Shown here: positions 44,908 through 57,526 of the stretch, piece by piece
Numbering within the stretch: the stretch's first letter is position 1
Layout of the letters: every line of letters starts with the position of its first letter
Assembly: GCF_000210915.2 (NCBI RefSeq)
Contig: NC_016620.1
Coordinates: 2,790,001 to 2,854,000 of the forward strand
From: Halobacteriovorax marinus SJ
GTDB lineage: Bacteria > Bdellovibrionota > Bacteriovoracia > Bacteriovoracales > Bacteriovoracaceae
DNA length: 64,000 bases
Reading direction: 5' to 3'
Translations under genes and position numbers: made by a program
Notes under the pieces: generated by a model
Databases searched by the model: none
What the model was told of the DNA's origin: nothing
Seen by the model: the letters and a program-made list of their open reading frames with translations, nothing else

Positions 44908-45617
44908 TAAAAACTTTTCTAATTATTTTTACATTAATATTCTCGATTTCAAGTCTTGCAAAGAAAAGATCGTGGTACAGCGATTTCGCAAGCCCAATTA
45001 CTACTGACGCAAAATATATTACAATGAGTGGTGCAGCCGCGACGCTAATGGTTTATGCAAATAAGTCTAGTAGAACTTATCGCAAGAGAGAGTCACTAAA
45101 AGAAGCTCAACCATTTGGGAAGTACGGAATTATTGGGGATATCGCAGGACAAGGTTTTTTAAATACTTTCTATGCACTCGCCTACTTGGGACATGGTTAC
45201 TTTGGAGAAAGTAATGAAAGTATGCAAAATGGTGAGCATATGGCCAAGGCTTCGATTTACTCAACCTCTCTCATTGTTGTTGGTAAGTTACTAGTAAGTG
45301 AAAAGAGACCTGGATATCCTGACGATGACGATTCATTCCCTTCTGGACATTCTGCTGCTTCATTTGCTTTTGCTTCTGTTGTAGCCGCTAGACATGGTTG
45401 GTACTGGGGCGGCGCTGCTTATGGACTAGCCGGTTTCATCTCAATTAGCCGAATTAATGATGACTTTCACTACCTGCACGATGTGGTTCTAGGTGCGACA
45501 ATTGGAGCCGCTTACGGATGGGGTACCTACTATAACTATAAGGATGGTATGCCCTACTTCTTCTCCCCAATCATCGTAGATGATGGAGGAGGAATAAATG
45601 TGAGTTGGAGTTTTTAG
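44892..45617 (+). CDS. PAP2-family phosphatase, exported
   Basis: A 241-residue acid-phosphatase/vanadium-haloperoxidase fold protein with all three active-site motifs: SEKRPGYP (KxxxxxxRP type), FPSGHSAAS (the central His) and SRINDDFHYLHDVV (SRxxxxxHxxxD). A signal peptide is present (LIFSISSLA), so it acts in the envelope, on lipid phosphates or related compounds. The GTG start at 44892 lies inside the upstream gene; TTG 44904 is an alternative. Confidence 0.88.
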   Translation: MVNILIKTFLIIFTLIFSISSLAKKRSWYSDFASPITTDAKYITMSGAAATLMVYANKSSRTYRKRESLKEAQPFGKYGIIGDIAGQGFLNTFYALAYLGHGYFGESNESMQNGEHMAKASIYSTSLIVVGKLLVSEKRPGYPDDDDSFPSGHSAASFAFASVVAARHGWYWGGAAYGLAGFISISRINDDFHYLHDVVLGATIGAAYGWGTYYNYKDGMPYFFSPIIVDDGGGINVSWSF

Positions 45618-45997
45618 ATATCTAGAATAGTACCAATCTTTTCCATAAGCTTTTGACGATTAAAAGGCTTTACTAAGATATTCTTCACCCCTAGCTTCAT
45701 TGCAAATAAGGTTTCCTCTTTAGTTAAACACCCAGAGATTAACAGTACTTTTACCTTTCCAAGCTTAAATGATTTTTTCAAGTTCTCTATAAATTCAAGC
45801 CCTGTACGATTAGGCATAGATTTATCTACAATGATTAAGTCAAACTCTTGATTATTTAACTTCATCATACCTTCGAGGGCATCTTTAGCTAGAACAACAT
45901 TACTGAAGCGAGAAGACATATCTAGAAAAATCTTAATGATTTTACAAATTTTCTCTTCATCATCAATCACAAGAACACTAAACTTCTTCTTCTTCAT
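45614..45997 (-). CDS. single-domain response regulator
   Basis: A 127-residue receiver domain alone. The acidic pair is VIDDEE; the phospho-Asp is in IIVDKSMPN; Ser in LLISG and Lys in LVKPF are intact. No output domain. Last gene of the SpoIIE operon, starting inside the kinase gene with a 20-base overlap (ATG 45997, GGAG upstream). Probably receives phosphate from the kinase and acts by protein contact. Confidence 0.88.
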   Translation of the reverse strand: MKKKKFSVLVIDDEEKICKIIKIFLDMSSRFSNVVLAKDALEGMMKLNNQEFDLIIVDKSMPNRTGLEFIENLKKSFKLGKVKVLLISGCLTKEETLFAMKLGVKNILVKPFNRQKLMEKIGTILDI

Positions 45998-47498
45998 GAC
46001 CTTCTCCAGCAGCAATTGAAAGACTTGTTAAAACACTCTCTTTATCCAGAGGTAAACTTACATAACCTTGGATTCCTTTAATTTTCTTATCTTCTTCACT
46101 CGCAATTAGGTAAAATTCAATCTTCTCATTTAAAGAAGAAACTTTTTTAATATCTAGCTTTGAGTGTAGATTCTTACTAATAATTATTTTATCAATTTCA
46201 ATATTCTCTAGAAGGTCTAGAGACTTTGAAGCACTTCTTGAAACAATAAATGAAGTTCCTCTTTCACCATTTAGAGCAATGAAGAAATTTAAATGATCAT
46301 AGTCCTCATCTAAAACAAGGACTTTAGTTGTAGAAGATGTATCAATATTAGAGATCTTAGCTTGAATCTCTAGATAATTACTAATTTCAGCAGATGGAAG
46401 CTCTATTATAAAAGAGCAGTGCTCTTTCCTATTCTCACCCAACTTTATTGAACCCTGATGCTCATCAATAATCTGAGAGGATAGTGAAAGACCCATACCT
46501 GTTCCCTCTCCTAGTTCCTTTGTTGTAAAGAACGGATTAAAAATACTTTCTACATTCTCTTTATCAACTCCATTTCCACTATCAATGACTTCTATAGTAA
46601 ATGAATCACTTTCTTCTCTTGAGGAGGCCTTAATAGAAACCTCTTTCTTCTTATTATTTGATTGAACAACAGAATCTAGCGCATTTTTTAAAAGGTTTAC
46701 AAGAACTTGCTCAATGGCCAATTCATCGACATAGGCCGAGATATCAGTGCTTGAATCAATTAATAAACTCACACTCTGTCTCTCATACGACGACGCGACT
46801 AGACTGACTGATGATTCAATTAAGTTTTTTACAGAGACAAACTTCTTCTGTTTAACTCCTTCATGAATAAACTTCTTCATATTAAGAGTTATTTTATTAA
46901 TTCTTAGAAGTGAGTTCTGTATATTGGAAATTGATTCCAGTATATCTTCCTTAGATTCAACACCTACTTGCTCGGCCAATAATATCTCTAAGATTTCAGT
47001 GTTCCCAGAGGCGATTGTTAAAGGATTACTTATTTCATGGGAAATTCCCGCTGACAGCTCTCCAATACTTTTCAATTTATCTGCATGAACTAATTGCTTA
47101 TAAGAAACCTTTAGTTCCTCAACTTGCTTTCGGTATTTGTCGTAAATAGATTTCTCTATTGAGAGATCATTAAAGCAAATTAAATACTCCTCATCAGACA
47201 CCTTATTAATTTTCACTACACAATTTATAATATCACTAGATTGGTGGAATTGAATTTCTCCTTCTTTACTAACAAAAGGATGTCCTGAAGACAGTACTTC
47301 TTCGAAGTGCGAGATTAAATCGATTCTCTTATCTACGGAAGTAAACAAATTTGAAATATCTTCTATTTTCTTAATCTTTCTCGGGGAAAGACCTGAGAAT
47401 GTTGAAAAGTAATGATTATAATAAACTAATTGCTTAGATTGATTTACAATAATTACTGGTTCAAATAATTGATCTAAATAACTCTTATCTTCTCTCAT
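45978..47498 (-). CDS. PAS-like sensor histidine kinase with pseudo-receiver tail
   Basis: A 506-residue soluble kinase. It has an N-terminal PAS-like domain (1-130) and a HisKA with His154 (AGISHEISNP). The ATPase domain carries the N-box (VLVNLLKNALDSV) and G-box (GEGTGMGLSLSS). Residues about 392-500 are receiver-like (TKVLVLDEDYDHL) but the phospho-Asp position reads IIISKN (Ser instead of Asp) and the Lys-Pro reads LPLD (Leu instead of Lys), so this part cannot be a normal receiver. No membrane segment. Eight bases after the STAS gene. Confidence 0.86.
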   Translation of the reverse strand: MREDKSYLDQLFEPVIIVNQSKQLVYYNHYFSTFSGLSPRKIKKIEDISNLFTSVDKRIDLISHFEEVLSSGHPFVSKEGEIQFHQSSDIINCVVKINKVSDEEYLICFNDLSIEKSIYDKYRKQVEELKVSYKQLVHADKLKSIGELSAGISHEISNPLTIASGNTEILEILLAEQVGVESKEDILESISNIQNSLLRINKITLNMKKFIHEGVKQKKFVSVKNLIESSVSLVASSYERQSVSLLIDSSTDISAYVDELAIEQVLVNLLKNALDSVVQSNNKKKEVSIKASSREESDSFTIEVIDSGNGVDKENVESIFNPFFTTKELGEGTGMGLSLSSQIIDEHQGSIKLGENRKEHCSFIIELPSAEISNYLEIQAKISNIDTSSTTKVLVLDEDYDHLNFFIALNGERGTSFIVSRSASKSLDLLENIEIDKIIISKNLHSKLDIKKVSSLNEKIEFYLIASEEDKKIKGIQGYVSLPLDKESVLTSLSIAAGEGHEEEEV

Positions 47499-47506
47499 AA
47501 TCTGCT

Positions 47507-47974
47507 CTACTTTATAAATTGAAAATACTGCTCTTCAATAGCATCAAACTCCATTTCATCACTTCCGCAATCAGGACACTTTACGGCCGGTGCACTTAAT
47601 CCTTTTACGTCAGATACTTTTAAGTGCATTTTAAATTCTTTATCACAGTCCTCGCAATAGTAAGGAGCATAGAATGACTCTACAGTTGCACCCTCTCTAA
47701 TGAACCCATGTACCATATTGATCTGCTCTATAATGATTTGACGACAATTTCTATAAACAAGTACAGAGTCCTTATCAACAGACTCAAGAAAGTTAACCCA
47801 CTCTCTTATTCCGCAAGAGTTTATTAAAGACACTTTCTCAAAGTCGAAAATAACTTTCCCTTTAATCTTTCCATCAAGCTCCGAGAAATTAGAATCCTCA
47901 TCAATCAAACCTTCAAATGAAATCAAGAGGCCATCCCCCTCTTGTCCTATTGTTATCTTTAATCCTTCGCTCAT
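47507..47974 (-). CDS. STAS-domain protein with zinc ribbon
   Basis: A 155-residue protein. Residues 1-100 are an anti-sigma-factor-antagonist STAS fold; the phosphoacceptor region reads FEKVSLINSCGI, with Ser53 where SpoIIAA has Ser58. Residues 107-136 hold a zinc-ribbon of two CxxC pairs (Cys107/110 and Cys133/136), an unusual addition. It overlaps the SpoIIE gene by four bases (ATGA) and precedes the kinase. It likely is the substrate of the phosphatase and ATPase-like domains of that protein. Confidence 0.83.
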   Translation of the reverse strand: MSEGLKITIGQEGDGLLISFEGLIDEDSNFSELDGKIKGKVIFDFEKVSLINSCGIREWVNFLESVDKDSVLVYRNCRQIIIEQINMVHGFIREGATVESFYAPYYCEDCDKEFKMHLKVSDVKGLSAPAVKCPDCGSDEMEFDAIEEQYFQFIK

Positions 47975-50577
47975 ACCTTTTCCTGTTCTTCAAAATAATG
48001 AAAAGAAGTTATCCTTTCTTTATATGTTTTAAATCTCTTATTTTTTTCAATTATGCATATGACTTCAGTACTTACACCAGGTCTTCTCCTGACAATAAAC
48101 TGATTAGAATATGAAAAAGCTAGAAATAATCCTAACCCTGCTCCTCCATTCTTATTTTGATGTTCGCGCTCCCTAAAGCTTCTTTCCAAATTAGAAACAA
48201 TAACTTCTCGATCTAGACGACCAGTAAAATCAATCACACAGATTGCAATAAACTCTCTTCCAACTGCAAGAGAATAGTCTATATGCTCATCCTCTCCTAA
48301 GAGTGGAGATGACTGACGATCCATTTCTGAGCGCTCATTGAAGACACTGCCTTTTCCTGAGTGGTAAAGTGCATTTGTAAGTAATTCATTACTAATGATC
48401 TTCAAGTAATCAATTGGACTTTCAAAGTATCCATCAGCATCAAGAGTCCCAAGTAAATTATTGATCTTCTCAAAGTCTGACTTCTCACGAACTGTTGTAT
48501 TGTGAAAATGAGCTTCCCCTAGATACTCTCCAAGAGAGAGCGATTCTTTGTAATTTTCAATATTGTGTTGAATTTCATGAACGAGGTGCGGAGAATTTCT
48601 TCCAACAAGATGATTAATGCTTTCATTCTCTTTTAATATAGAGATATTCTCGCAGTCCTCCCTAGAGGAAATAAAAACAAATCTAGAATCATTTATAACT
48701 TTATCAGTTACGTACTTCTTACATTCTTCTTTAAGATTTTTATTAAGTAGAGTTTTCAATTCAGAATCATCAATATTACCACTCTTTGTGGCTTCCTCTT
48801 TCTTAATATCTTCAGACTTTACACTTACTATTGTAACATCATCATCAATTGGAATATCTCCATAGAAATCAAATGCACCACTGACAATATTATCCCTGAA
48901 CACATCATTAGCTTCAGCTATATTTGCATTAAGACTCTTTAAGAATCTTCTCTGCCCATAGTCACGATCTTCACTATTTTTTGACTCTAGAATTCCATCT
49001 GTAAATAGAAGGACTCTTTCAACTTCACTAATATCAATGCTATCTACTTTATAATCCCCAAATCCCTTGTGCCCAAGCCTTGGGCCATTACTTCCTAAAA
49101 GCGGCTTAAAGTTGTTCTTAGCATTTACGTCGTAATCAAAACCCCTATAGAGAGGAGGATTGTGAGAAGCATTAGAGTAGAGAACCTCTCCCCTCTCCTT
49201 ATCAAAGACACAGCAAAATGCGGTCATCAACATCTTACCTTCTAAGCACTGAATGGAGCGGTTCATGAACTCGAGAACTTTCTCTGGAGAACGAATAATA
49301 CTTTCATCGCCTTGCTTCAAGTTCTCTAGACAACAATGGGCCGTAGCGGTTAGTAGTGCTGCAGGAACTCCATGTCCAGTAGCATCGGTAATCACAACTG
49401 TGAGAAATTTATCACTCTCATAATATCCCCACCAATCTCCACCACACTCACTAGCTGGTTTATAAAAAGAGGATATATTGAAAGAGTTTAGGCCTAAGTT
49501 CTCATTTGGAAAATATGTAGATTGAACATACTTAGCCGTCTCAATTTCATTTTCAAGACGTGCCTTCTCTTTCATCTCATCCATATAGCGAAGAATTTCT
49601 TCACTCATATAATTAAATGAATCTCCAAGTGCTCCAATTTCATCCCTAGAACTAATCTCGGCCTTTTTCGTAAATTCACCTTTTGAGATTGAAAGTGTTA
49701 AATCATATAATTTTTCAAGTGGAGATGTTAGCGATCTCGAAAACAAAAGAGCAATAAACCCTGAAAGAGAAAGCAGAACAAGACCAAAAATCTTAGATTT
49801 CCCTAATAAGTACTCATTAACCTTATAAGCTTCTTTTTTTGAAATTTCAGAAATAAATATTAATTTAAATTTCGCATCGATAATATACGATAGGATTTTT
49901 GGTTCAACTGTATCAACTTCAATTGTGGCCTCTTTTAGAGACTTTTCTTTTATCTCATCGAAGTAATTTTTAGATATATCACCAAAGAAAGCAGTTCCAT
50001 CAGGATTAAGTATATAAGAGTCATATTGAGAGAATGAAGATAGGATACTCTCTAAGTAATTTGTACGTAAGAACATTACTAAATTAAGAGAATTCTCCTT
50101 ATTGAAGTATTTTAATACTAAGTAGCTCTCCAATTGATCTTTGAAAATTATGAAGCCGTTTATATCTTGAATATTGAGACTGCCTACTATTCTCTTGTAC
50201 TCCTCCACAGAATGACCTAAGTTTTCAATTTGGCTTTGATTGTAGAACGAGCTCTTTTGCTCTCCATCTTTATAAATATCTAGATGTAGAACATCTTGGT
50301 AATTACCAAGAATATCCCCTACTTTTTCAATTGGCATGTAACTTAAAATTTGTAACTTATCAAAAGTGGAAGATAGATAATTAGATACTCGATTATTGAA
50401 AGAGAGATTGGCCTCACTACTATTTCCATAGATATAAGCCGACTTATCTTTTTCAAATAAGTTAAGAGCAAAGATTGCATAGAGAGAAATAGAACTCACC
50501 AAAAGAGCTGCCATTATCACAACTAGCTTTATCTTTAGAGGAAAAACTACCCTTCTACTCAAAAATGCCTCACTCAT
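47971..50577 (-). CDS. SpoIIE-type phosphatase with HAMP and a C-terminal ATPase-like domain
   Basis: An 868-residue membrane protein: TM near 18-38, an extracytoplasmic sensor to about 262, TM about 263-285, HAMP, and a PP2C/SpoIIE phosphatase (about 350-570). Metal-binding motifs are FTDGILESKN, DATGHGVPAALLT and DDDVTIVSVK. The C-terminal third has a GHKL/RsbW-like N-box (IISNELLTNALYHS, about 728) and G-box (GGAGLGLFLAFSYS, about 810). One protein thus joins phosphatase and kinase-like halves, as in partner-switch systems. First gene of the operon, 71 bases from the divergent FecR gene. Confidence 0.88.
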   Translation of the reverse strand: MSEAFLSRRVVFPLKIKLVVIMAALLVSSISLYAIFALNLFEKDKSAYIYGNSSEANLSFNNRVSNYLSSTFDKLQILSYMPIEKVGDILGNYQDVLHLDIYKDGEQKSSFYNQSQIENLGHSVEEYKRIVGSLNIQDINGFIIFKDQLESYLVLKYFNKENSLNLVMFLRTNYLESILSSFSQYDSYILNPDGTAFFGDISKNYFDEIKEKSLKEATIEVDTVEPKILSYIIDAKFKLIFISEISKKEAYKVNEYLLGKSKIFGLVLLSLSGFIALLFSRSLTSPLEKLYDLTLSISKGEFTKKAEISSRDEIGALGDSFNYMSEEILRYMDEMKEKARLENEIETAKYVQSTYFPNENLGLNSFNISSFYKPASECGGDWWGYYESDKFLTVVITDATGHGVPAALLTATAHCCLENLKQGDESIIRSPEKVLEFMNRSIQCLEGKMLMTAFCCVFDKERGEVLYSNASHNPPLYRGFDYDVNAKNNFKPLLGSNGPRLGHKGFGDYKVDSIDISEVERVLLFTDGILESKNSEDRDYGQRRFLKSLNANIAEANDVFRDNIVSGAFDFYGDIPIDDDVTIVSVKSEDIKKEEATKSGNIDDSELKTLLNKNLKEECKKYVTDKVINDSRFVFISSREDCENISILKENESINHLVGRNSPHLVHEIQHNIENYKESLSLGEYLGEAHFHNTTVREKSDFEKINNLLGTLDADGYFESPIDYLKIISNELLTNALYHSGKGSVFNERSEMDRQSSPLLGEDEHIDYSLAVGREFIAICVIDFTGRLDREVIVSNLERSFREREHQNKNGGAGLGLFLAFSYSNQFIVRRRPGVSTEVICIIEKNKRFKTYKERITSFHYFEEQEKV

Positions 50578-50648: not shown

Positions 50649-53600
50649 ATGAACTATAAGAAGCTTGATTACTTCCTAATTCCCTTTACATTTATCTGCT
50701 TTCTCATAAGTAGTTACTACCTAGTGGCCGACCAACTTACTTTGACCAATGAGATTAGAGAATCCATTGCTAAAATAACTCAAACAACAAATACAGTACG
50801 AACAAAAAGAGGAACAAGCCTCTTTTGGAAGAATGCACATATGGGAGAAGATCTTGATCAAAGCGATCAGATTTATACTCATCAAGGTTCTACAGCTAAG
50901 ATTGCGCTCTCTGATGGAGCAAAAATTAATATCTCACAAAGTACACTACTCTCTCTATCTCAATTCTCTAAAACAAATGAAATCTCAGTGGAGAAGGGAT
51001 TTATCATTGCTGAACTTGGTGATAGTAAAAAAGAAATTAGTATAAAACTTGGGGATAAAACTCTTCGTCTTCAAAGTAATAAGGCTAAAGTTCAAATTAC
51101 GACAGAAAATAATCAATCTTCTCTATCCATCCTAGATGGTAGTGTCAGCATCTCACATGACAATAAAGAGACAACAGGTAGTAAAGGACAAATTCTTAAA
51201 CAGAAAGGAAAGAATATCGAAGTTGAAAATACTATTGCACAAATAGATTTTCCAACTAGTGGGGCAAGAGTTTTTATTGGTGATAAAACTAAGAAAGTAG
51301 CATTTAAATGGTCAGGTACAAAATCCCCAATAATTCAAATTGCTAAAGACTATAACTTTAAGAGAATTATACAGAGAAAGTCCTTAACAAAGAATAATAT
51401 CGAATTACCTCTAATGACAGGACAGTATTACTGGAGAATCGTCGAAGGAAATAAAACGAGTCTAACCCATCGTCTAGAGGTTCTCCCAGAGGTCTCCACG
51501 ACTCTCACCTCTGCTTTCGACAAAGAGGAAATTGAGTTCTTAAACAAAGAGTCTTCCCTCCTTCTCACTTGGGTTGATCAATACTTTAACGACTTTGAAA
51601 TTGAGATTAACGGAAAAAGAGAAATTGTAAGTGGAAAGAACTTTTTCAATTTCATATATTCTAGAGAAGGTATTTATAATTGGAAAGTTAGACCTTTAAA
51701 CTCTCCTGCTTCAAAATGGTCAAAAGAGGGAATTTTTATTGTTAAGAACCCTCCCCTTCCCCCTCCAGTAAATCTTATTACCCCTGAGAATGATCATGAA
51801 ATTATTGTTTTTCCAAATTCTAAAGCAGAATTTAGATGGTCTGGACGAAATAGCGATCGTTATCTTTTAGAAATATCTAAGGATCAGAACTTCAAAGATA
51901 TTGTTTTCTCAAATACCCTAACAACAAACTCTATTCTTTTTAGAATGAAGAAAAGTGGAAAGTACTTCTGGAGGGTAAAGTTAATTGATCCCCTTAATAG
52001 AGAAACAGAATATTCCAAAGCTAATATTGTACATATAAATCTATATGACACGAGTTCTATCCCAAGAGATGGAACTAAATTAGTCATCAATAGACCTAGT
52101 AAGAAAGTTCAATTTAAATGGGAAGACTTAAGAACACGAGATCAGAGAGTTGTTTCTTATCAATTCGAACTTTCAAAAGATTCAAACTTCAAGAGTATTG
52201 AGAAATCTGCAAGTGTAAGAACGAATTCTATAGAAGTTAGTGTTCCACAAATTGGAACGTACTACTGGAGAACGAAAGTTGAAATCCCTGGTAAGGAAGC
52301 ATACTACGGTAGCCCCCAAAGAGTTACAATTAGCCCTACCCCTCCGCCAGTTCGTCCTATACTAGACGATGAGGTTGAAATTGAGCTTAAGATTAACTCG
52401 ATCTTCAATTCCATTAAGAATATATTCACTAAAATTATTGATCTTATTATACCTTCTGTATCTGCAAGTGAAGAGACAACACAAGCAACCATCCGCTGGA
52501 AAAAAGTTGTAGACACTAAGAAGTACTACCTTGAGATATACAAAGACCCTGAACTTAAAGAAATTGTGATAAAGGAAGAAGTTAGTGAGAATGCTTTTAA
52601 GTTGAATAATTTTGAGGAAGGTATTTACTACTGGAGAATTTCTACTCTTGATCACTGGAATAGAAAAAGTGAGTTCTCAAATATTTCTAAACTGATTCTT
52701 AAACTTCCAGAAGAAGTAAAAAAAATCGAAAATGTGAAATTAAATCTCCCATCAAATAACTCTACCTACAGAGGAGAAAAGAGAAGAATAAGATTTAGGT
52801 GGAGTAAATCAAGTCAGGCGGTAAAGTATCAACTTATAGTTTCAAAAGACATTAATTTTGAAACGACATACCTCATGAGAACAGCAACAAAGAACTTGTA
52901 TAATATCTCCCTCTCAAAAGGAAAGTATTTTTGGAAAGTCACCTCTTTTAATAAATATAATAGGTCTATAGAGAGTAAAGTAAGCTCTTTTCAAATTGCT
53001 CCTAAGAAAGATCCGCCAACACTGGCCCAGCCAAAAGAAGCAAAGAATATACTTATATTTAAAGATAAAAGCTCTTTTAAAGAAAGAGATCATCTCTATT
53101 TTCGCTATGACTTCACTCTTTCTAGTGCCAAGCAAGAGCATCAGAGCTACACAGTAAATGCCAAAGACCCTATCTTCACATCAATAGAAATAGGAAACTT
53201 CTCTGAAACTAATTGGGGAGACTTTAATTCACAACTAAGAAGATTCTCAGGAAAGGTCTTTGAAGATCAAAGCTATGGAGTACTATCTATTCAATCCACT
53301 TATCAATATGCTCTAACAAAGAGTCTATTTCTAAATGCAGGACTTGGATTTAGTAAGTTCTCTAGCTATCAAAGAGATGTTAATACAGTTGTCTCCGTTG
53401 ACCAAACATCCATTCTCTTACCTATTTCAATTCAATACAATTCTGTCTTTTTAGAAAATCGAAATCGCTTACGTTTCGAGTACACCATTGGTAAATTAAG
53501 TTCTATGAAGTTAATTAATACTTTTGATTTTAACTATAAGAAAAATAAGTTCTTTAGTGTAGGTCTTGGATATGAGAAGTACTCTGCAAGCGTTGAAAGT

Positions 53601-53657
53601 AGTGACTTTACAATATCAAATATGATGAGCTTTCTTAGATACAATATACGCTATTGA
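50649..53657 (+). CDS. FecR-domain protein with six repeats and beta-barrel end
   Basis: A 1002-residue surface protein. There is an N-terminal membrane segment or signal (about 9-27), a FecR-type domain (about 50-190; GSTAKIALSDGAKINI, GFIIAEL, KLSSLSILDGSVSI-like), then six fibronectin-like modules each ending in Gly-x-Tyr-x-Trp (near residues 259, 342, 437, 537, 659, 758). The last 200 residues are beta strands with a terminal aromatic (FLRYNIRY), as in an outer-membrane barrel. No TonB genes are near. Divergent from the SpoIIE operon; its 3' end overlaps the glycine-rich gene by 42 bases. Confidence 0.82.
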   Translation: MNYKKLDYFLIPFTFICFLISSYYLVADQLTLTNEIRESIAKITQTTNTVRTKRGTSLFWKNAHMGEDLDQSDQIYTHQGSTAKIALSDGAKINISQSTLLSLSQFSKTNEISVEKGFIIAELGDSKKEISIKLGDKTLRLQSNKAKVQITTENNQSSLSILDGSVSISHDNKETTGSKGQILKQKGKNIEVENTIAQIDFPTSGARVFIGDKTKKVAFKWSGTKSPIIQIAKDYNFKRIIQRKSLTKNNIELPLMTGQYYWRIVEGNKTSLTHRLEVLPEVSTTLTSAFDKEEIEFLNKESSLLLTWVDQYFNDFEIEINGKREIVSGKNFFNFIYSREGIYNWKVRPLNSPASKWSKEGIFIVKNPPLPPPVNLITPENDHEIIVFPNSKAEFRWSGRNSDRYLLEISKDQNFKDIVFSNTLTTNSILFRMKKSGKYFWRVKLIDPLNRETEYSKANIVHINLYDTSSIPRDGTKLVINRPSKKVQFKWEDLRTRDQRVVSYQFELSKDSNFKSIEKSASVRTNSIEVSVPQIGTYYWRTKVEIPGKEAYYGSPQRVTISPTPPPVRPILDDEVEIELKINSIFNSIKNIFTKIIDLIIPSVSASEETTQATIRWKKVVDTKKYYLEIYKDPELKEIVIKEEVSENAFKLNNFEEGIYYWRISTLDHWNRKSEFSNISKLILKLPEEVKKIENVKLNLPSNNSTYRGEKRRIRFRWSKSSQAVKYQLIVSKDINFETTYLMRTATKNLYNISLSKGKYFWKVTSFNKYNRSIESKVSSFQIAPKKDPPTLAQPKEAKNILIFKDKSSFKERDHLYFRYDFTLSSAKQEHQSYTVNAKDPIFTSIEIGNFSETNWGDFNSQLRRFSGKVFEDQSYGVLSIQSTYQYALTKSLFLNAGLGFSKFSSYQRDVNTVVSVDQTSILLPISIQYNSVFLENRNRLRFEYTIGKLSSMKLINTFDFNYKKNKFFSVGLGYEKYSASVESSDFTISNMMSFLRYNIRY

Positions 53658-54650
53658 AAAAGTCATTATTAGAGTTAAGAGCATATATTTCATTTTCTCA
53701 CTCTCATCTAAATCAATTCTTCCACAAGAAATTGAAGAGTCATAACTAGCACTTGATACAGCACTGGTTGATGAAGAGACAAATGTATTAATTGAAGCGC
53801 TCGGAGAGGTTGAACCTGTTCCCGTTATAATTCCATCTCCATCGTCGTAGCGAATTCTTCCACTACCACCTTTTCCACCGTCATTATTTGTTGTAAAAGT
53901 TCCATCCCCTGCACTTCCACCATCAGCACTAACTGTCCCATTAATTCTTATATCACCAGAAGCCTGCAAAAAGACTGCTCCACCAGATCCGCCACCGCCG
54001 CCACCTGCACCACCAGAATGAGGAGTTCCTGCTCCTGTAGCAGCACCACCTCCACCAGCTCCACCACCAGAGCCTCCTAAGAAGATATTCTCAAAGTTTG
54101 ACTCTGGTCCATAACTAGATGAACCAGCAGCTCCTGCAGCAACTGCTCCCCCTAGATCGTCCTCTCCAGCTTCTCCATCATCGGGAAGAGTCTCCGTTCC
54201 ATAGCGGCCACCGCCACCACCACCTCCGCCGGCATCGCCAAAACCTAAGTGTGTTGCAACATCTCCACCTTTACCCTCTCCATCATTTCCACCACTTTGC
54301 CCGTCATTTCCAGAAGAAGAAATTGTAGGGCAACTTCCTCCTGCAAAACCTCCAGCTCCAGCGCTTCCAGCACTTGAACCAGCAACAGCACTTCCATTAC
54401 CGCCGTCTCCACCAACAAGGGAGAGATTTCCAGTAACTGTAACCGATGATGTTGATTTGATAATTAAGGCCTTTGATCCGGTAACTGAAATAGAAGAAAT
54501 AGAGACACTCGTACAATTGTAAGTATCTTTCACGTCAGTATCGAGTGCTACTGTGAAGTTACAGGCTCCATCACTTCCGTCGCCAAATTCAGCGCCCATC
54601 GCTCGAGGAGTTAAAATAATGAGAAATAGAAGGGCCCAAAAGCAGTGCAT
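53616..54650 (-). CDS. glycine-rich surface protein
   Basis: A 344-residue protein with a signal peptide (FLIILTPRAMGA), an N-terminal beta-rich part (VSISSISVTG), a central glycine-rich region (GGGGGGGG tracts and GAGGGGAATG, about 90-290) and a C-terminal membrane segment followed by Lys-Lys-Ala-His-His. That layout resembles secreted proteins held at the surface. GC rises here only because of Gly codons. The promoter is TTGTCA-N16-TATAAT with six bases to ATG 54650, predicted leaderless. The 3' end overlaps the FecR gene by 42 bases. Confidence 0.78.
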   Translation of the reverse strand: MHCFWALLFLIILTPRAMGAEFGDGSDGACNFTVALDTDVKDTYNCTSVSISSISVTGSKALIIKSTSSVTVTGNLSLVGGDGGNGSAVAGSSAGSAGAGGFAGGSCPTISSSGNDGQSGGNDGEGKGGDVATHLGFGDAGGGGGGGGRYGTETLPDDGEAGEDDLGGAVAAGAAGSSSYGPESNFENIFLGGSGGGAGGGGAATGAGTPHSGGAGGGGGGSGGAVFLQASGDIRINGTVSADGGSAGDGTFTTNNDGGKGGSGRIRYDDGDGIITGTGSTSPSASINTFVSSSTSAVSSASYDSSISCGRIDLDESEKMKYMLLTLIMTFSIAYIVSKKAHHI

Positions 54651-54693: not shown

Positions 54694-56433
54694 TTATTCT
54701 ACTTTTTCGACTCTAATTTGAGTATAGATTTCATCGTCACCAAAGCTTGCGGCGATCCCAAAACCAACTATAGTTCTAGTAACAGTACATCTATGTTGAA
54801 CCTGAAATGCACTCGCCTCAGTAACAGTTATAATTCCCATGAAATCTGAGTTCGACACACTTCCGTAACTAGTGTGAGATCTTTGAGTTGTCCCTATTAG
54901 AACATTCTCACCTGTTGTCATATTTACTAATTTTGATTTATGAATATTATCAAAGTATCCCGGAACAACACCGTGAATATGATAAGTCCCTGGAGAGAGA
55001 TACATCTGATTACCAGAAACTGAAACAAAAGAATTATCTCCCTCAACAGTATTTAAATCTCTTGTTAGATAACTTCCCTCTGTACAGTCTCCACCGTGAG
55101 TTCCGTTTGGCTTAACATCTTTAACATAAGCAATTTTTCTTTGAACTCCTGTCTCTGGAATTAATGACGCTGCAATCTTTCCATCAGTCCCTACTTGAAC
55201 AATTTTCCCAGCGCTTGTACCTACATCAACACTAATTTCACCATTTCCATTCTCAATGGCACCTACGATACCAACACCTGAAGAGAGGTTTACATTAGCG
55301 TCTTCACCTTTATCACCCTTATCACCTTTCTCACCCTTTTCACCTTGAATACCTTGAGCTCCATCAGCTCCAGCAAGACCCTGTGGACCTTGAGGTCCTT
55401 GTGGCCCAATAGCACCAGCTAAACCTTGCGGTCCTTGAGCACCAACTTCCCCTTGTGGGCCTTGGATTCCCTGAGGCCCCTGTGGTCCCATTTCTCCTTG
55501 CTCCCCTTTCTCTCCACGCTCACCTTGGTCACCCTTATCGCCTTTTGCTCCAGCAACACCAGCAACACCTTGAATCCCCTGAGGACCTTGTGGACCTACA
55601 TCACCTTTGTCGCCTTTATCACCTTTATCGCCCTTATCCCCTTTCTCACCTTTTGCTCCGGCAGCACCTGCAAGCCCTTGTGGCCCTTGCGGACCAGCTG
55701 GTCCAACTTCACCTTGTATACCTTGAAGACCTTGAGCTCCTGGCGCACCAGCAATACCTTGTGGTCCTTGTTCTCCAGCTTCACCTTGGAGACCTCTTGG
55801 TCCCATTTCACCTTGAGGACCTTGAATCCCCTGAGGGCCCATTTCACCTTGGTCTCCCTTATCTCCCTTTTCACCTTGAGTTCCCTCTGGCATATCAGTC
55901 GGCACCCAAAGGTTTCCATCAAACTGAAGAATCTGCCCAACAACAGGACTTATTCCTTCAAACTCGATTCCTTCAACTTCACTTACAGCTTCCTCTACTA
56001 AGAAGTTTGCTGTTATTGAAAAATTTCTACTTGTAAAAAATGTTCTTCCCTCTAATCTCAATGTTATTTGATCAAAAACTTCTCTAACCTTTCTACTATC
56101 ATAACCATCACTACAACTATCTAAATAGAGCTTATAATCACTGGTTAGAAGTTGTGCTAACGGAAGTCTTTTAGGCGAGTACAAACATGAAACACTATTG
56201 TCGAGGTCTACAAAAACTTTATACTTACCTAGGGTTCCACGAGCGTTCTTCATTCTTATATAGCGTGGAATCTGGACTAAACCTTGAATAGATAGAGAGT
56301 TTTCTGGAACCTTATAGCTTGCAGAGAGCGATACTCTCTCTTTATGAGCATGCCTCTTCTCTGACTTTCTCGCCTCTACTAAAGGAGCAACGAGCAAAGC
56401 AATAGCGATAAAATTTATCTTTAAAGATTTCAT
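54694..56433 (-). CDS. collagen-like surface protein
   Basis: A 579-residue exported protein (start ATG 56433; signal [13 protein letters not shown]). After an N-terminal beta-rich part of about 180 residues it has 65 uninterrupted Gly-X-Y triplets (about 184-378), rich in GPQ, GDK, GEK and GIQ. A C-terminal globular part follows ([47 protein letters not shown]) that resembles C1q-like or phage-tail trimerisation domains. Such proteins form trimeric rods on the cell surface. No hydroxylase is needed by bacterial versions. Confidence 0.9.
55300..55884. repeat. Gly-X-Y repeat DNA of the collagen-like gene
   Basis: 585 bases encoding 65 perfect collagen triplets on the minus strand, with near-identical 9- and 18-base units (for example four GDK triplets in a row around 55610-55640). 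The opposite strand has long open frames here, but these are a by-product of the Gly-X-Y codon pattern and not genes. Confidence 0.9.
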
Positions 56434-56722
56434 AAAACATCCAACGTGCAATTGTTAATTAATTGAGTACTATTGTAGGCCAATTAATAAGATTTCTTAT
56501 GAATTTAAAGAATTCTAATAGTTAATTCCTTTAACCGACTGATAATTCGAATTTTAATTTAATATATTCAATAAACTTAATTTCAACGTCTTATTTGATA
56601 GTAGCGACTATTATTGGCAGTTAAAGAATAAAAACCAACTAACAATATATCCCAATAATATATTTCTCATTTTCAGCTATTATAGGCTAAGCAAGTAAAC
56701 AAAATTAACCGAGTAGTAGAGC

Positions 56723-57526
56723 ATGGATGAATTTGAAATTGAATTAAAACAATCTACCTTAAATGAACTTGAAGATACTCTATCTGACCTTATTGATTAT
56801 TTGCAAAGTAACGAGTTTCACTTACTAGACCTAGATGAATTATTCAGAGCTGCCCATAGCCTAAAGGGCAATTCCAAAGCAGCCGACTTTGACTCCATAG
56901 CAAAGGTAACCCACCAACTTGAAGACCTACTTATTAATAGAAAAGATTCTTCAAAAGAAATGACGAGTAAGTTCTACGACTTACTCCTTACTTATAGTGA
57001 ACATATTCAAAGCTCAATCGAACAATTAAAGGGAGACATTTCGCTTATGCCAAATCTAGATGAACTACAAAATCAAATTGAGAGCTTTGAAGATTCTACA
57101 ACAGAAGAGTCCTCACCAAAGAAAGCCGAAGTCAAAGGTCTTAAAAAGCTCCTCCTAGTAGATGACGATATAGATATCTATACAATAGTTAATAAATATC
57201 TAAACGATAAATTTGAAATTGATTATGTATCAAATGCTGTTCAAGCCATTGAAGATTGTAAACTTGAAGATTATGATCTCATCATCTGTGACTACAAGAT
57301 GCCAGTAATGAATGGACAAGAATTTGCCCTCTACCTTAGACAAGGATCATCTAAGAATAAAGAAACTCCAATGATATTTTTAACAGCTTTTTCACCAAAG
57401 CTATTCAATCAAAAATCTATTTGGGAAGAAGTATTCTTTATGGATAAACCTATTCAAAAAAAGAAGCTACAATATTACGCCAAATGTGCACTACAGTCTT
57501 CTTATATAAAAGAGAAGGCCTCGTAG
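56723..57526 (+). CDS. Hpt-receiver phosphorelay protein
   Basis: A 267-residue protein with an N-terminal Hpt domain (His45 in AAHSLKGN) and a C-terminal receiver (about 142-260). The receiver has the acidic pair VDDDID, phospho-Asp in LIICDYKMP, Thr in FLTAF and Lys in MDKPIQ. It could pass phosphate between the kinases of the region and another regulator; no partner is fixed by the sequence. It has no ribosome site. Between 56452 and 56722 I see an AT-rich stretch with no gene. The convergent xdhC gene ends two bases away. Confidence 0.87.
   Translation: MDEFEIELKQSTLNELEDTLSDLIDYLQSNEFHLLDLDELFRAAHSLKGNSKAADFDSIAKVTHQLEDLLINRKDSSKEMTSKFYDLLLTYSEHIQSSIEQLKGDISLMPNLDELQNQIESFEDSTTEESSPKKAEVKGLKKLLLVDDDIDIYTIVNKYLNDKFEIDYVSNAVQAIEDCKLEDYDLIICDYKMPVMNGQEFALYLRQGSSKNKETPMIFLTAFSPKLFNQKSIWEEVFFMDKPIQKKKLQYYAKCALQSSYIKEKAS

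Follow-up and report, generated by a model that had tools for sequence, protein, structure and literature searches.

A candidate partner switch with a histidine kinase output in Halobacteriovorax marinus and its relatives

The window analysed here, a stretch of 64,000 nucleotides from Halobacteriovorax marinus SJ (NC_016620.1), contains four tightly packed genes on the minus strand, running from 50577 to 45614 in the list of open reading frames and encoding a membrane phosphatase-kinase, a STAS protein with a C-terminal ribbon, a histidine kinase (HK) and a receiver (Table 1). An earlier note on this DNA had placed four such genes here, and the open reading frames agree with its coordinates. 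The stop of the phosphatase gene overlaps the STAS start by 4 nucleotides, the STAS and HK genes are separated by 8 nucleotides, and the HK and receiver genes overlap by 38 nucleotides when counted from the TTG start or by 20 nucleotides from the likelier ATG. The HAMP, SpoIIE, HisKA, HATPase_c and Response_reg domains all score above the curated Pfam cut-offs, and a residue check found the catalytic motifs complete in all of the window proteins that carry them. The operon is probably a partner switch with the histidine kinase as its output, and gene neighbourhoods across its relatives suggest a widespread signalling module in which the same switch lies beside other enzymes with the same docking-type PAS domain.

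Table 1. Features of the operon and its surroundings (positions within the window; TM, transmembrane)
Feature	Positions	Strand	Length	Remarks
Membrane phosphatase-kinase	47971..50577	-	868 aa	HAMP-SpoIIE fused to GHKL serine kinase
STAS-fold phosphoacceptor, CxxC/CxxC ribbon at C terminus	47507..47974	-	155 aa	
Cytoplasmic HK	45978..47498	-	506 aa	PAS-HisKA-HATPase_c plus degenerate receiver
PAS domain of HK, proposed docking point for STAS protein	47136..47498	-		From comparative genomics
Degenerate receiver of HK	45978..46330	-		
Single-domain CheY-like receiver	45614..46015	-	133 aa	TTG start at 46015; ATG at 45997 more likely
Divergent FecR gene	50649..53657	+	1002 aa	TM anchor 9-27, periplasmic FecR 73-166, Ig-like repeats
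Glycine-rich exported protein	53616..54650	-		Adjoins FecR gene
Protein without known function	54694..56451	-	585 aa	
Hpt-REC protein	56723..57526	+		Domains assigned by eye

In the phosphatase-kinase, two TM helices (residues 18–36 and 261–279) flank a periplasmic sensor and are followed by HAMP (278–328), SpoIIE/PP2C (392–587) and GHKL serine kinase (~690–845) domains, with a remnant receiver-like linker (~600–680) between phosphatase and kinase and a conserved tail, KRxKxYKERITSFHYF, at the end of the chain. Matches to Pfam SpoIIE (E = 1.8e-30) and HAMP (E = 1.9e-12) are strong, the PP2C acids D381, D398, D527, D579 and D580 are all kept, and structure comparison returned a fold match between the phosphatase and SiaA-PP2C (6k4e). 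The GHKL part retains its ATP-binding motifs (N-box E731/N735, D783 and GGAGLG from 811), which are conserved across ten orthologues, and the full-length AlphaFold model can be aligned with the RsbU-RsbW fusion Rv1364c (3ke6) across PP2C and kinase alike. In many relatives the phosphatase and kinase are two genes, with the separate kinase gene between phosphatase and STAS, and the GHKL part is therefore a true module. The Pfam matches, the motifs and the 3ke6 alignment all agree with the earlier reading of a membrane SpoIIE phosphatase fused to a GHKL-like domain, and the ATP-binding residues, whose loss had been named as a ground for doubting it, are intact.

The product of the second gene is, judging by its predicted structure, a STAS-fold protein, despite the lack of a curated STAS match (Pfam PF01740 finds neither the window protein nor its locus in five genomes). 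This identity rests on an AlphaFold model (mean predicted local distance difference test score, pLDDT, 93) that matches TM1442, RsbV and SpoIIAA over its N-terminal 100 residues (VIA Z 10.9–12.0), and on a family profile that matches TM1442 in the PDB (E = 0.00076). As the earlier note had claimed, Ser53 is kept; it lies in the NSCG motif (within INSCGIREW) at the phosphoserine position of the fold, beginning the helix after the third strand, and by eye it aligns with the phosphoserine of the known SpoIIAA/RsbV sequences. At loci found without motif bias (L021–L044 and L127–L142 of the survey) the serine is kept except in two PilZ-fused proteins. The C-terminal segment EFDxxExxYFxFIK is conserved in the family, with the corresponding helix in the window reading EFDAIEEQYFQFIK.

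The ribbon cysteines fall at residues 107, 110, 133 and 136. All four are present in 52 of 94 family members and none in 32, and metal binding is therefore not essential to the family; the CxxC motifs that the earlier note had read as a zinc ribbon are real, but not every family member has the ribbon, and roughly one relative in three lacks all four cysteines, a point that the note had missed. Structure comparison scarcely covers this part (residues 103–155), and its assignment goes no further than cysteine spacing and weak matches, both under cut-off, to FmdB-type zinc ribbon models (TIGR02605, 25.2 of 31.3 bits; PF09723, 22.1 of 34.4 bits), while PDB profile matches of the ribbon part to MCM chains are also weak (E = 0.05). 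The two PilZ-fused STAS-ribbon proteins (L043:7228-8028 and L044:2587-3384; PilZ Pfam E = 7.8e-9 for L043) come from two genomes of another family and have an acidic residue at the phosphoserine position, possibly a variant that reads cyclic di-GMP (c-di-GMP).

The HK consists of a PAS domain (residues 1–122), HisKA (E = 1.3e-7) with H154, HATPase_c (258–369; E = 1.8e-21) and a degenerate receiver (~390–495), with H154, N268/N272, D306xGxG and GxGxG all present. The stand-alone receiver (Response_reg, E = 1.4e-22) keeps D18, D19, D64, S94 and K116 and carries no output domain, so that the two-component features, from the HisKA histidine and HATPase motifs to the receiver Asp pocket, are all in place. 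In the HK-fused receiver the phosphoacceptor Asp is lost, with this alignment column holding S in the window, G in two sister species (L021 and L022) and D in each of the 11 remaining rows; because of this loss phosphate probably ends up on the stand-alone receiver, which would be the sole working receiver here. The degenerate receiver was missing from the earlier account, as was the conserved divergent FecR gene, which is co-conserved with the phosphatase gene and whose FecR-Ig product is a probable sensory partner of the phosphatase-kinase. An envelope signal is plausible given a Burkholderia LysM-FecR/CHASE2-kinase operon, in which FecR lies beside a membrane sensor and interruption of the response regulator gene leaves biofilm lacking (PMC5192318). 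The Hpt-REC gene near the FecR gene holds the same place in L021 and L022, whose HK has also lost the receiver Asp, and its product is a possible relay partner.

Of the 369 genomes from the phylum Bdellovibrionota, 259 have a member of the STAS-ribbon family, and further members were found in Myxococcota and in one Fibrobacteria metagenome-assembled genome (MAG). Searched for in other Bdellovibrionota, the four-gene order turned out to be kept through most of the family Bacteriovoracaceae with the FecR gene divergent, and variants occur across the phylum and in Myxococcota. At the 52 STAS loci that are flanked by four complete genes in either direction, a kinase (44), phosphatase (42), PAS gene (45), receiver (39) and FecR gene (38) lie within four genes; many of these loci come from related genomes and the values are counts rather than independent events. 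Conservation of the order bears out the proposal that partner-switch and two-component signalling meet in one operon. The earlier note was to be refuted by a gene order both common and described; the order is common, but a literature search, with most subscription journals beyond its reach, found no paper describing it. A role specific to predation was considered and dropped, as Myxococcota and MAGs of uncertain lifestyle carry the module too and some genomes within the same family lack it.

The earlier note held that the sequence does not show the final target, a claim in need of revision: comparative genomics suggests that the target of the STAS protein is the PAS domain carried by the adjacent HK. 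Next to the STAS gene there is nearly always a gene that begins with this one PAS family. Docking is placed on the PAS because it is the constant partner of the STAS protein while the output varies. In the window genome, which has 12 PAS_9 matches, a PAS-only profile scores the HK PAS at E = 9e-46 and the next PAS at 0.25, and by this profile the dedicated PAS occurs in about one gene per genome. Compared with the best 150 STAS matches, 77 of the best 150 PAS matches across the 369 genomes immediately follow a STAS-ribbon gene from that list, another 38 lie no more than 6 kb away, and 35 are left, which come from genomes without STAS among the matches listed (n = 26) or with STAS on another contig only (n = 9). 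By hand tally, both families occur in 179 genomes, only the PAS in 14, only the STAS in 80 and neither in 96 (Fisher p = 1e-24, with related genomes not independent).

Behind the same PAS, the outputs are HisKA (n = 38), CheA-like (n = 21) and GGDEF (n = 9), and the PAS tree requires at least six output changes, compared to a minimum of two, with GGDEF nested in the CheA group at a starred branch. The gene after STAS encodes a PAS-GGDEF diguanylate cyclase at L035, L120, L141 and L142, with a PAS-GGDEF gene two or three genes from STAS at L040 and L133, and a PAS-Hpt-HATPase CheA-like kinase at L105, with such a gene nearby in L127. Fusions also link the parts to one another, with three between kinase and STAS (L087, L125 and L129) and a PAS-GGDEF-kinase fusion directly downstream of STAS (L120/L036).

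Under the proposed mechanism, the periplasmic domain of the phosphatase-kinase would sense an envelope signal, with the FecR-Ig protein probably taking part, and through HAMP the signal would shift the balance between the PP2C phosphatase and the GHKL kinase, the motifs of which are both in place. These two activities would set the phosphorylation of Ser53, and the unphosphorylated STAS protein would bind the PAS of the neighbouring HK and change its autokinase activity, with activation rather than inhibition proposed by analogy with SiaC alone. The HK would then pass phosphate to the stand-alone receiver, while in relatives the same STAS-PAS pair may drive a CheA-like kinase or diguanylate cyclase instead. 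More tentatively, Bdellovibrionota and Myxococcota may share a modular class of partner switch, in which the STAS-ribbon protein recognises a dedicated PAS adaptor on interchangeable outputs and, in the HK form, serine phosphorylation directly gates histidine phosphorylation.

Several observations weigh against this reading. The link between STAS and PAS is drawn from gene neighbourhood and fusions, which indicate functional linkage rather than binding, and the PAS could instead be the site for a ligand needed by all of the outputs. SiaC contacts the coiled-coil stalk of SiaD and not a PAS, and the analogy gives no contact site. The 80 STAS-only genomes lack a PAS match at 1e-6, and the PAS-CheA gene of Bdellovibrio points away from the STAS gene at a distance of ~4 kb; for both of these reasons, further STAS targets besides the PAS probably exist. 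The GHKL part has only a weak Pfam match (HATPase_c_2, E = 0.027), and many of the survey loci were found by a scan that started from the NSCG motif, which is therefore over-represented among them.

The two-component pair could also lie upstream, with the HK phosphorylating a receiver that controls the phosphatase-kinase and the STAS protein acting on an unlinked target, which would be the wiring of SypE/SypA, HsbR/HsbA or RsbK/RsbY. For HsbR and RsbY, two-component signalling feeds into partner switching. The receiver-like remnant between phosphatase and kinase, apparently a fuller receiver in some relatives (L096 and L113, by eye), offers a possible entry for phospho-signals, although in the window it lacks a full receiver fold, and a PAS-diguanylate cyclase, which cannot pass a phosphoryl group upstream, occupies the same slot in several lineages. 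Even with such wiring documented for SypE/SypA (PMC10120452) and for RsbK, a hybrid sensor kinase that acts on sigma-B (PMC4574943), this arrangement is unlikely here.

It is improbable that the operon is a classical sigma-factor switch with the GHKL domain as anti-sigma factor, the STAS protein as its antagonist and the HK and receiver merely co-operonic. The STAS protein has the fold of SpoIIAA/RsbV and the kinase that of SpoIIAB/RsbW, and fused phosphatase/anti-sigma-type proteins are known (3ke6), but here the kinase forms part of a membrane protein, signalling enzymes fill the effector slot, and inspection of the operon and its neighbours in the window and the listed relatives, for which no sigma-factor profile was run, found no sigma-factor gene. 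Least probable of all is that the partner switch and two-component pair are only co-transcribed, with no joint function. Genome compaction alone can give tight packing, and at 16 of 94 STAS loci the next gene on the same strand has no PAS, yet the specificity of the PAS, the repeated swaps of output behind it and the fusions all argue against this.

By analogy with known systems, the working principle is most likely partner switching, closest to SiaABCD and to stressosomes with variable outputs. As in RsbU-RsbV-RsbW, a PP2C/SpoIIE phosphatase, a GHKL kinase and a STAS protein with a phospho-serine position are all present, but membership in the sigma-B type was rejected, as inspection of the neighbouring genes, run without a sigma-factor profile, showed no cognate sigma factor. 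Rv1364c has phosphatase and GHKL kinase in one chain as well, but is not a membrane HAMP protein and holds its STAS part in the same chain, whereas the window protein is a membrane HAMP protein with STAS on a separate chain. In SiaABCD of Pseudomonas aeruginosa, SiaB phosphorylates and SiaA dephosphorylates SiaC, which when unphosphorylated binds and activates the neighbouring cyclase SiaD, an interaction blocked by SiaB phosphorylation (PMC8457831, PMC7647112). In both systems one operon encodes a membrane phosphatase of the HAMP-PP2C type, a kinase, a phosphoprotein with the STAS fold and an effector enzyme of its own, and some relatives of the window module have a cyclase effector. In contrast to SiaABCD, the window effector is an HK with a receiver, phosphatase and kinase share one chain and the kinase belongs to the SpoIIAB/RsbW type, the STAS protein has a ribbon as well as Ser in the place of Thr, the suspected contact is a PAS rather than a stalk, and a FecR protein is added. 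Membership in SiaABCD was rejected, as there was no SiaC/DUF1987 match (Pfam E <= 0.5, NCBIfam E <= 0.1), the window neighbour is a PAS-HisKA-HATPase and no cyclase is present. The phosphatase itself matches the NCBIfam SiaA model over HAMP and PP2C only (E = 6.6e-22, 77.8 bits compared to an equivalog cut-off of 700).

Gram-negative stressosomes (Vibrio vulnificus RsbRSTX with D1/D2) likewise place variable outputs after a STAS/kinase/phosphatase module, and among these outputs, which include HK and GGDEF proteins, several have in common an N-terminal domain of docking-like character, RsbU_N (PMC9237108). Unlike in stressosomes, the presumed messenger is the STAS protein itself and not RsbT, and the shared domain is a PAS. 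A stressosome was rejected, with one STAS gene in the operon, no RsbR/RsbS pair, and the other Pfam STAS matches of the genome unlinked. SypA/SypE (PMC10120452) resembles the window module in using STAS as a downstream effector of kinase and phosphatase rather than as a sigma-factor regulator, but there two-component input acts on the kinase/phosphatase, whereas the two-component pair of the window operon seems to serve as its output. HsbA/HsbR (PMC6482189) and BgrV/BgrR were also compared, with HsbA and BgrV controlling cyclases (PMC8457831). The most distinctive feature of the window module is the histidine kinase end point together with interchangeable outputs behind one PAS.

If correct, this would provide, both for obligate predators and for the phylum at large, a concrete, testable Ser/Thr partner switch that directly targets a histidine kinase. 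It would account for what modules of this kind regulate when they come without a sigma factor, and would offer one docking domain testable with three different enzymes. In the V. vulnificus stressosome, no positive interaction was found between RsbT and the downstream two-component protein D1, leaving the same question open there (PMC9237108). The Pfam STAS model misses the STAS component across this phylum.

The genes for the glycine-rich exported protein and the 585-aa protein are conserved beside the FecR gene in several Bacteriovoracaceae. At one locus (L138, G333:C19) the FecR and PAS-HK-REC genes are adjacent, with no STAS gene within the 12 kb examined. Large receiver proteins occur near the STAS module at Bdellovibrio-type loci (L127:4668-6593, with DUF4388; L105:11854-13788, with DnaJ) and are a possible output. 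In Myxococcota (L101, L114, L118, L122 and L123), STAS-ribbon proteins have a long low-complexity tail and a likely terminal TM helix (by eye), and their genes adjoin a short gene that in four cases (not L114) weakly matches the profile of the dedicated PAS.

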